DNA of 39,588 bases, taken from NCBI GenBank assembly GCA_904420505.1, contig CAJFVS010000045.1:1-39588 (forward strand), given 5' to 3'. Source of the DNA: Candidatus Alloruminococcus vanvlietii. GTDB taxonomy: Bacteria; Bacillota; Clostridia; Oscillospirales; Ruminococcaceae. Below, one piece after another: positions 8,378 through 10,977 of this stretch. Positions within the stretch are counted from its first letter, which is position 1, and each line of letters begins with the position of its first letter. The notes under the pieces are model-generated. The model was not told the DNA's origin and searched no databases. It was given only the letters and a program-made list of their open reading frames with translations. Made by a program: the position numbers and the translations under genes.

Positions 8378-10042
8378 TTATTGTTGTTCCTGTGACGCTT
8401 TGCGGATTTCCACCCGGCGGATTTTGCCGCTAATGGTTTTGGGCAATTCGGGTACAAACTCCACAATGCGGGGGTATTTATAGGGTGCTGTCTGTTTTTT
8501 CACGTAATTTTGCAGTTCTTTTGTCAGCTCTTCGGATGCGGTATACTGCTTGGTGAGCACGATGGTTGCTTTTACCACCTGGCCGCGCACCGGGTCGGGC
8601 GCGCCGGTAATGGCGCATTCCAGCACCGCCGGATGTTCCATCAAAACGCTTTCAATCTCAAACGGCCCAATGCGGTAGCCGGAGGATTTAATCACATCGT
8701 CGGTGCGCCCCACATACCAGAAATACCCGTCCTCGTCGCGCCAGGCGGTGTCGCCGGTGTGGAACAGCCCGTCGTGCCAGGCGTTTTCGGTCAATTCTGG
8801 CGCCCTGTAATAGCCCATGAACAGGTTAAAGGGCAGATGATCTTTGGGGGTGCGCACTACAATTTCGCCAACACTGCCGGTGGGAACCGAATTGCCGTCC
8901 TCGTCCACTAGGTCTACATTATATAAAGGAGACGGGCGGCCCATCGAACCGGGCTTGGGCTCCATGCCCTTGAGGTTGGCGATAACCAGGGTGGTTTCGG
9001 TTTGGCCAAAGCCTTCCATCAATTTCAGGCCGGTGAATTCATAAAAACGGTTGTACACTTCGGGGTTTAAGGCCTCCCCTGCAATGCAGGCATATTGCAG
9101 CGAGGAAAGGTCGTAGTTTTCCATGCCCTCTTTGATGAAAAAGCGGTAGATGGTTGGCGGGGCACAGAAGGATGTGATGCGGTATTTTTGAATCATATGC
9201 AAAAGGTCGGATGGCGCAAATTTGTCAAAGTCGTAAACAAAAATGCAGGTGCCGCAGGTCCACTGCCCGTACAGCTTGCCCCATGCGGCTTTGCCCCAGC
9301 CGGTTTCGGATACCGTAAGGTGCAGCCCGTCGGCGTGGTTGTTCAGCCAGTGCTTGGCGGTAACGATATGGCACAGCGCATAGGTGTGCGCATGCAGCAC
9401 CATTTTGGGGTAACCGGTGGTGCCGGAGGTAAAATACAAAAGCATGCCTTCGTTTACATTGGTTTGCACGCGTTCAAGTTGGTCGCTTTCCTGCTCCAAA
9501 AGGCTGTCAAAATCCAGCCAGCCTTCGCGTTTGCCGCGCACCATAAGTTTGTGCTGCAAAGTGGGGCATTCGGGCTGGGCAGCGTCTACATGTTCGGCTA
9601 CCTCGCCTTCCCCGGTGCAAACAATTGCCTTCACATCCGCTGCATTAAAGCGGTAAACAAAATCCTTTTTGGTAAGCAGGTTGGTTGCCGGGATGGCAAT
9701 TGCCCCGATTTTATGCAAAGCGGTGATGGCAAACCAGTATTGGTAGTGGCGTTTTAACACCAGCATCACCATATCGCCTTTTTTTATCCCTAAGCGGGTG
9801 AACAAATTGGCCGCTTTGTTGGACATTCTGGAAATATCCGCATAGGTAAACACTTTTTCTTCGCCATGTTCGTTGCACCAAATCATGGCGCGCTTCTCTG
9901 GGGCAAGGGCTGCAATGGCGTCTACCACATCGTAGCCAAAGTTGTAATTGTCTTTGTAAGTCAGTTCAAATTTGGTTAAAACGCCGTTTGCGTCAAATTC
10001 TTCTTTGCAAAACTGTTTATAAAAATTTTCCAAGTCTACCAT
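8378..10042 (-). CDS. AMP-forming acyl-CoA synthetase (acyl/short-chain acid:CoA ligase)
   Basis: 554-aa ANL-superfamily enzyme: acid + ATP + CoA to acyl-CoA + AMP + PPi. Core motifs are in order: P-loop YFTSGTTGYPKM (203-214), GFGQTET (344-350), the hinge motif YVGRTDDVIKSSGYRIGPFE (443-462) and PKTISGKIRR (534-543) with catalytic Lys540. The overall pattern resembles medium- or branched-chain acyl-CoA ligases rather than acetyl-CoA synthetase, whose length is ~650. The ATG lies 1 base after the stop of the XRE-cupin gene, so the two are co-translated. Both are downstream of a T-box riboswitch, which implies an amino-acid-linked substrate such as isovalerate, isobutyrate or an aryl acid; this is inference. 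Confidence 0.93.
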   Translation of the reverse strand: MVDLENFYKQFCKEEFDANGVLTKFELTYKDNYNFGYDVVDAIAALAPEKRAMIWCNEHGEEKVFTYADISRMSNKAANLFTRLGIKKGDMVMLVLKRHYQYWFAITALHKIGAIAIPATNLLTKKDFVYRFNAADVKAIVCTGEGEVAEHVDAAQPECPTLQHKLMVRGKREGWLDFDSLLEQESDQLERVQTNVNEGMLLYFTSGTTGYPKMVLHAHTYALCHIVTAKHWLNNHADGLHLTVSETGWGKAAWGKLYGQWTCGTCIFVYDFDKFAPSDLLHMIQKYRITSFCAPPTIYRFFIKEGMENYDLSSLQYACIAGEALNPEVYNRFYEFTGLKLMEGFGQTETTLVIANLKGMEPKPGSMGRPSPLYNVDLVDEDGNSVPTGSVGEIVVRTPKDHLPFNLFMGYYRAPELTENAWHDGLFHTGDTAWRDEDGYFWYVGRTDDVIKSSGYRIGPFEIESVLMEHPAVLECAITGAPDPVRGQVVKATIVLTKQYTASEELTKELQNYVKKQTAPYKYPRIVEFVPELPKTISGKIRRVEIRKASQEQQ

Positions 10043-10043
10043 A

Positions 10044-10631
10044 TTACTCTGCCTCCGAACCCGTTTGTTTCTTTAAGATGATGGCTAAAAAGGTGCATTC
10101 TTCCCCGCCGGTGGCAATCATGCCGTGCCCATGGGAAGAATCATACAAAATGGCGTCGCCTGCATGCAGGTATTCCACATGGTCTTCCAGCTGCACTTTT
10201 AAGCTGCCGGTCAGGATGTAATCAAATTCCTGCCCTTCGTGGGTGGATAAATGAATCGGCGCGTTTTGTTCTTCCTCGTGATAAGGGGCGCAAACCAAAA
10301 AAGGCTCGGCGTATTTGCCTTTGAACAAATGCGCCAGATGCTGGTAGGTAAAGCCCGCGCGGCGTTTGATGGGCAACCCCTGACCTTTGCGCACAATGGA
10401 ATAAAACGAAAGCTTGGGCCGGTCGCCGGTTAACAGTTCAATCATGTCCACGCCAAAACGCTCGGCGCATTTAAACAAAAAGGTAAAGGAAAAATCGCTG
10501 TTTCCGCTTTCCAGCGCCTCATATTCTTCTACGCTTACGCCCGTAACCTGGGCCATTTCTGCAACAGAAATATCCAAAATCTCCCTTAAACCGCGAATTC
10601 GCTCGGCAATTTCAAACAATTTGGTATCCAT
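10044..10631 (-). CDS. XRE-family HTH regulator with C-terminal cupin sensor domain
   Basis: 195-aa putative transcription regulator. Residues ~8-62 form an XRE helix-turn-helix (LDISVAEMAQVTGVSVEEYE), and ~100-190 a cupin barrel (PIHLSTHEGQEFDYILTGSL; DSSHGHGMIATG) expected to bind a small ligand. This is the same architecture as PuuR/SutR-like regulators. The start at 10631 follows GGGAGG by 8 bases, just after the T-box terminator. It is the first gene of a two-gene operon with the acyl-CoA synthetase and probably senses a substrate or product of that enzyme. Its own operator is not evident in the leader. Confidence 0.9.
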   Translation of the reverse strand: MDTKLFEIAERIRGLREILDISVAEMAQVTGVSVEEYEALESGNSDFSFTFLFKCAERFGVDMIELLTGDRPKLSFYSIVRKGQGLPIKRRAGFTYQHLAHLFKGKYAEPFLVCAPYHEEEQNAPIHLSTHEGQEFDYILTGSLKVQLEDHVEYLHAGDAILYDSSHGHGMIATGGEECTFLAIILKKQTGSEAE

Positions 10632-10662
10632 GTGTTTTCCTCCCAACAAGTTTTTGTAAAAT

Positions 10663-10942
10663 AAAAAAACCGCCCTAGTTTTCATAAAATGAAAACTGGG
10701 ACGGAATAATTACCGCGGTACCACCCATATTGCAGCTATTTTGCTGCCACTTACGAAGTTCCAACAAACTCCTGGCCTTAACGCAGCCTTACGTGATTCT
10801 CTACTTGCATTACGCTTTCGGAACCCTGCTCAAAAGGGATAAGATTGTTCCCATTCCTGCCGGCCTCACACCAAATACCGGCTCGCTGTAAGAACGTGTA
10901 TGGAACGCTCCGTCTTTCTCAACGCTTTTGGTTTTTCAATTT
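10663..10942 (-). promoter_or_regulatory. T-box riboswitch (tRNA-sensing leader)
   Basis: Complete T-box on the minus strand. Stem I begins with CAAAAG (10930-10925), which pairs with CTTTTG; it contains the GAGAAAGA K-turn side and the AGCGAGC / TTGGTG distal-loop elements. The T-box core TGGGTGGTACCGCGG lies at 10727-10713. It is followed by a terminator stem (10704-10670; CCGTCCCAGTTTTCAT against ATGAAAACTAGGGCGG) and seven T (10669-10663). By aligning helices with the known glyQS layout, the specifier is most likely CTT (10843-10841, Leu) followed by the conserved A. ATC (10845-10843, Ile) is an alternative register. The riboswitch class is certain; the amino acid is not. Confidence 0.95.
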
Positions 10943-10948
10943 GCAATT

Positions 10949-10977
10949 ATCATATACCTGTTAAAACCATTTGTCAA
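10949..10977 (-). promoter_or_regulatory. Strong sigma-A promoter of the T-box operon
   Basis: Minus strand: consensus TTGACA (10977-10972), 17-base spacer, TATGAT (10954-10949). It starts the T-box leader near 10942 and lies immediately after the stop codon of the HAD gene. Confidence 0.9.

Follow-up and report, generated by a model that had tools for sequence, protein, structure and literature searches.

The T-box leader and its operon

The window, the whole stretch of 39,588 nucleotides from Candidatus Alloruminococcus vanvlietii analysed here, carries a T-box leader that heads a two-gene operon, in which an XRE-cupin gene is followed by a gene for an AMP-forming acyl-CoA synthetase. The features are as follows.

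10949..10977, minus strand: sigma-70-type promoter, TTGACA-17-TATGAT (consensus scan, 11/12 positions)
10694..10931, minus strand: T-box leader, RF00230 (cmscan, 103.6 bits, E 5.6e-22)
10838..10840, minus strand: specifier codon AUC, isoleucine (aligned codon ATC in 27/27 homologous leaders)
10713..10727, minus strand: T-box core TGGGTGGTACCGCGG, UGGU bulge, antiterminator (sequence reading and cmscan alignment)
10660..10704, minus strand: intrinsic terminator hairpin and T run, alternative to the antiterminator (fold -23.8 kcal/mol, z -4.3)
10044..10631, minus strand: XRE HTH and Cupin_2 protein, 195 aa (Pfam HTH_3 and Cupin_2, above gathering cut-offs)
8378..10042, minus strand: AMP-forming acyl-CoA synthetase, 554 aa, Macs/MbcS-like (Pfam AMP-binding; NCBIfam; PDB)

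The leader (10931-10694) covers the full RF00230 model, positions 1-219, end to end, and its score lies above the gathering score of 93. Besides this model match, it has the specifier codon, the UGGN bulge and the competing terminator of the T-box class. The UGGU bulge is complementary to the ACCA end of a tRNA, which fits a discriminator A, and none of 200 shuffled sequences was as stable as the terminator region. An initial annotation of this DNA had described a complete T-box with a consensus promoter, upstream of an XRE-cupin gene and an AMP-forming ligase gene. All of these are borne out: the core falls exactly at the 10727-10713 given there, the region of the terminator placed at 10704-10663 folds stably, the promoter is found at 10977-10949, and Pfam identifies both proteins, at 10631-10044 and 10042-8378.

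The specifier codon, which the initial annotation had not called, is ambiguous in the single sequence, where CUU, UUA and UCU were also candidates. Alignment of the window leader with 26 leaders upstream of homologous XRE-cupin genes rules these out in favour of AUC. The T-boxes with known targets in the same genome (tyrS UAC, thrS ACC, trpB UGG and leuA CUC) set a register in which the codon stands one base plus five bases before a conserved GAG, and applied to the window leader, this register yields AUC. A discriminator A suits tRNA-Ile, not tRNA-Ser. Of the eight T-boxes in the genome, the window leader alone specifies Ile; the rest specify Tyr, Leu (acsB, leuA and probably an NSS transporter), Trp, Thr and Asp. 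The NSS-type transporter, which is sodium-dependent (C7, L012:6568-7935, minus strand), has an upstream T-box of 99 bits whose specifier is probably CUC (Leu), in an uncertain register.

The acyl-CoA synthetase

The best NCBIfam profile for the window ligase is MbcS (NF047394), although its score of 508 bits places it outside that equivalog family, which has a cut-off of 850. Its best PDB match is 3ETC, the Macs enzyme of Methanosarcina acetivorans, at 728 bits, with the next best at 403. In Macs, which favours 2-methylbutyrate, Trp259 of the acyl pocket and a Gly that replaces Trp416 of acetyl-CoA synthetase have been shown to matter (PMC10455477). Both residues are conserved in the window ligase, where TAKHW and EGFGQTET align with them, so that it resembles the Macs-type enzymes in this signature as well as in overall sequence. 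The window ligase probably activates 2-methylbutyrate. The short branched acid that the initial annotation had proposed as substrate remains likely. Its examples, isovalerate, isobutyrate and phenylacetate, give way to 2-methylbutyrate for the window copy because the specifier is Ile.

XRE-cupin/ligase units in related genomes

Of the 298 genomes of the family, 122 have a homologue of the XRE-cupin protein. Among the remoter homologues, at about 44-52% identity, many are XRE-cupin-ligase fusions in single frames of about 760-840 aa. These fusions (L047-L054 among others), which often occur two in tandem, are possibly self-regulating enzymes. When each species was represented by a single genome, a scan turned up 80 named loci. 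Most belong to Oscillospirales and Coriobacteria; two contigs are filed under Thermoplasmata/Methanomassiliicoccaceae and two more under Lentisphaerae.

The association of T-box, XRE-cupin and AMP-forming ligase recurs well beyond the window. Among 128 XRE-ligase units, 61 have an Ile T-box, a count in which at least 4 loci are present twice, 5 have a Val T-box, and in 62 no T-box was detected. The specifiers are script calls, of which four were reset by eye to ATC, as was L063, which had been scored as lacking a T-box. Rfam confirms the T-boxes of the Val units. Carriers of the Ile T-box unit include the cultured relatives Angelakisella massiliensis, Neglectibacter timonensis and Bittarella massiliensis. 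The Val specifiers occupy three separate positions in the ligase tree, and at two of these the genomes also bear an Ile copy: G115 and G169 have Val units (L055 and L060) besides Ile units (L043 and L059), while G222 and G104 have tandem Ile/Val pairs (L049, L052). A decayed T-box of 50 bits lies upstream of the XRE-cupin gene of a Candidatus Soleaferrea (L017:2361-2530, minus strand), which has ilvC; a pattern search found no T-box core in it.

A second ligase under Leu T-boxes

The window's own genome contains a second ligase under T-box control, acsB, which is unrelated to the window ligase.

C42, L010:4589-6256, minus strand: acsB, second ligase, near NF009233
L010:6310-6561, minus strand: acsB T-box, 121 bits, specifier CUC (Leu)

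Across 148 family genomes, acsB orthologues were collected at 30 loci, and the specifier is CUC or CUG (Leu) in all 20 that bear a T-box, that of the own genome included. The gene is present in 47 of 60 genomes with the XRE-cupin gene versus 5 of 88 without it, in a count that ignores kinship. All three specifiers meet in G060, a 100% complete genome, where an Ile T-box heads an XRE-cupin/ligase unit, a Val T-box heads a ligase and a Leu T-box heads acsB. Its Val T-box stands directly on the ligase, with no XRE-cupin gene between them. Distant acsB orthologues lack a T-box and carry a fused sugar-epimerase-like TIM barrel.

Linkage to 2-oxoacid:ferredoxin oxidoreductase

In Coriobacteria, two XRE-ligase units flank a complete 2-ketoisovalerate:ferredoxin oxidoreductase (VOR), with VorB at 544 bits (cut-off 399) and the beta and gamma subunits. 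VOR also stands beside the units on two contigs that are filed under Methanomassiliicoccales, and in G222 and G104, from Oscillospirales, the Ile T-box unit is followed by the Val T-box unit, a ParA-like ATPase, a ferredoxin subunit and VorB. VorB lies 1.9-5.1 kb from the XRE-cupin gene in 12 family genomes. Among the 298 genomes, VorB is encoded by 109 of the 122 with the XRE-cupin gene and by 51 of the other 176 (Fisher p 1e-26, kinship ignored); of 28 T-box genomes, 24 encode it and four do not. None of 30 VOR loci showed a T-box on VOR itself. In Oscillospirales, Coriobacteria and the contigs filed as archaeal, the cluster of VOR and XRE-cupin-ligase genes also has a small ParA/MinD-like ATPase as a conserved member (copies at L049:7111-7791, L052, L104:8008-8760 and L126:511-1170).

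The own assembly (1.83 Mb in 125 contigs, 95.5% complete) was searched by named families. VOR was not found in it, and the POR_N search matched only a NifJ-type pyruvate:ferredoxin oxidoreductase (PFOR). The 2-oxoacid:ferredoxin oxidoreductase proposed in the initial annotation is thus upheld in the relatives, by adjacency to and co-occurrence with the unit, but not in the own assembly. One study reports genetic evidence for a role of a NifJ-type enzyme in branched-chain amino acid breakdown (PMC12867394), and because of this it may be speculated that the NifJ-type PFOR could replace VOR.

Branched-chain pathway genes

The initial annotation had also suggested looking for incomplete Leu/Ile/Val pathways. 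The own genome has ilvB and ilvN (C25, L180:5087-7206), an ilvD-like gene, BCAT (TIGR01123, 422.8 bits, cut-off 250) and leuA; ilvC was not found in the 95.5% complete assembly, but the pathway as a whole is not broadly missing. The absence of ilvC extends to relatives: the gene occurs in 54 of the 122 XRE-cupin genomes versus 127 of the 176 others (kinship ignored), and 25 of 28 T-box genomes lack it. Among genomes whose leaders were read, 6 of 37 with a T-box have ilvC versus 7 of 8 without one (p 3e-4, kinship ignored).

The absence of ilvC was considered as proof of auxotrophy and rejected, since most of the T-box genomes that lack it keep ilvN. The presence of ilvBN without ilvC suggests that the reductoisomerase has been replaced by another enzyme or that the remaining genes serve another use; beside ilvBN, inspection by eye gave no shared candidate for a replacement. 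In G078, where ilvC is not detectable, an Ile T-box stands on a citramalate-synthase-like gene.

L254:10911-12491, minus strand: citramalate-synthase-like gene
G078:C7:650613-650852: T-box of this gene

Because ilvB, ilvN, the ilvD-like gene and leuA are kept, and because of this Ile T-box in G078, the T-box organisms are possibly not auxotrophs.

Proposed mechanism and alternatives

The conversion of branched volatile acids to isoleucine, valine and leucine in rumen and gut anaerobes has been known biochemically since the 1960s. The link between this operon and amino acid supply drawn in the initial annotation is supported, and the favoured reading, held with fair but incomplete confidence, is that uncharged tRNA-Ile induces a ligase for 2-methylbutyrate, whose CoA product is reductively carboxylated on the way to isoleucine. 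Uncharged tRNA-Ile would pair at two sites, with the AUC specifier through its anticodon and with the UGGU bulge through its ACCA end. This pairing would stabilise the antiterminator, so that RNA polymerase could read into the XRE-cupin and ligase genes. With ATP, the ligase would convert external 2-methylbutyrate, a fermentation acid, to 2-methylbutyryl-CoA, from which a 2-oxoacid:ferredoxin oxidoreductase (VOR in the relatives) using reduced ferredoxin would form 3-methyl-2-oxopentanoate, and BCAT would transaminate this to isoleucine. In the organism itself, the carboxylating enzyme may be a VOR that was not assembled, or possibly the NifJ-type PFOR. The XRE-cupin protein would sense the acid or the acyl-CoA, in line with the acid-level input suggested in the initial annotation, and probably modulates the expression of its own operon. 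The T-box, the specifiers, the gene order, the co-occurrence and the relatedness of the proteins are observed features; the substrate, the direction of flux, the carboxylation step of this organism and the ligand of the cupin are the parts that we infer.

In the rumen, 2-methylbutyrate is the precursor of Ile, isobutyrate of Val and isovalerate of Leu (PMC7356843, PMC10658910, PMC2812497). The specifiers match these three known acid/amino-acid pairs, and the route from tRNA-Ile through ligase, VOR and BCAT to isoleucine is therefore favoured. Parallel ligases would then convert isobutyrate to valine under a Val T-box and isovalerate to leucine under a Leu T-box. A broader version, offered tentatively and at slightly less than an even chance, is a three-branch regulon of gut anaerobes in which uncharged tRNA-Ile, -Val and -Leu would each induce their own acid:CoA ligase, the acids would become amino acids via VOR, and the XRE-cupin protein, often fused to the ligase and self-regulating, would sense the acid or acyl-CoA. 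The main gap in the route is the VOR that was not found in the own assembly; the ligase also falls under the MbcS cut-off, and VOR is reversible and could simply make acyl-CoA.

The strongest rival is a supply of membrane lipids, in which the ligase would make branched acyl-CoA primers for branched-chain fatty acids, as MbcS of Staphylococcus aureus does, and the T-box would respond when branched amino acids, the usual source of primers, run low. MbcS is indeed the best NCBIfam profile and activates 2-methylbutyrate and isobutyrate for FabH and branched membrane fatty acids (PMC10026030). The VOR linkage is compatible with this role because an oxidative VOR would give the same acyl-CoAs. Uncharged tRNA, however, signals the state of translation rather than of membranes, T-box control tracks the loss of ilvC, the unit and VOR are found on two MAG contigs whose archaeal origin is a matter of filing (L116, L126), and Macs itself comes from an archaeon. 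Archaeal lipids need no fatty acids. Membrane supply as the main function is judged unlikely; a dual role is plausible, and both processes may draw on one acyl-CoA pool.

The Ile specifier and the retained ilvBN would also fit a ligase that makes propionyl-CoA, whose reductive carboxylation would give 2-oxobutyrate, the normal isoleucine precursor via IlvBN-C-D. Macs is able to adenylate propionate (PMC10455477), but it completes the reaction poorly with poor substrates, and this pathway requires ilvC, which was found neither in the own genome nor in 25 of the 28 T-box genomes. As it also leaves the Val and Leu T-box ligases unexplained, it is quite improbable. Still harder to credit is that the T-box mainly controls the XRE-cupin protein as a regulator of unlinked genes, with the ligase incidental: the XRE-cupin gene does come first in the operon, yet many relatives have it fused to the ligase, and the Val T-box of G060 directly precedes a ligase without it.

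The reading in which each ligase serves the amino acid named by its specifier makes the T-boxes a source of candidate genes with predicted substrates. Ligases under Ile, Val and Leu T-boxes point to the genes for a little-mapped rebuilding of amino acids from short branched acids; in a 2022 reconstruction of 2,856 gut genomes, the branched-chain variants differ only in the source of 2-oxobutanoate (PMC9026213). If the reading is true, an auxotroph score may hide an acid-dependent producer in many gut species, with the acids supplied by amino acid-fermenting neighbours.

Relation to known systems

Earlier work has established the T-box class, ligases of the Macs type, VOR and the biochemistry of the carboxylation. 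The window element shares with known T-box leaders the full model, specifier, bulge, terminator/antiterminator and promoter, but differs in its target, an XRE-cupin and acid:CoA ligase operon. The two accessible T-box surveys list synthetases, biosynthesis and transport as targets, and the term 'acyl-CoA' is absent from the text of both (PMC2494555, PMC3766115). Ile/Val/Leu T-boxes on acid ligases, and XRE-cupin-ligase fusions, appear to be undescribed in the accessible literature, which covers the T-box reviews incompletely. Allison and co-workers reportedly found that rumen anaerobes make branched-chain amino acids by carboxylating branched acids. The route proposed here would share that chemistry, with an acid, a CoA ligase, a ferredoxin-linked carboxylase and a transaminase, whereas the own genome has no recognisable VOR and the regulation by tRNA is apparently new.

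Among ligases, Macs is the closest solved relative, with an end-to-end alignment and the pocket Trp and Gly in common, although the likeness is one of sequence: Macs has no T-box and no shown operon with an XRE-cupin gene. MbcS, a ligase for 2-methylbutyrate and isobutyrate, has its known role in branched-chain fatty acids, and the accessible part of its source describes no XRE-cupin or T-box. The own genome also has a paralogous XRE-cupin and ligase pair without a T-box (C25, L181:6947-9208, plus strand), close to which, in the tree, stand among others a Val T-box copy (L062) and the second Coriobacterial copies.
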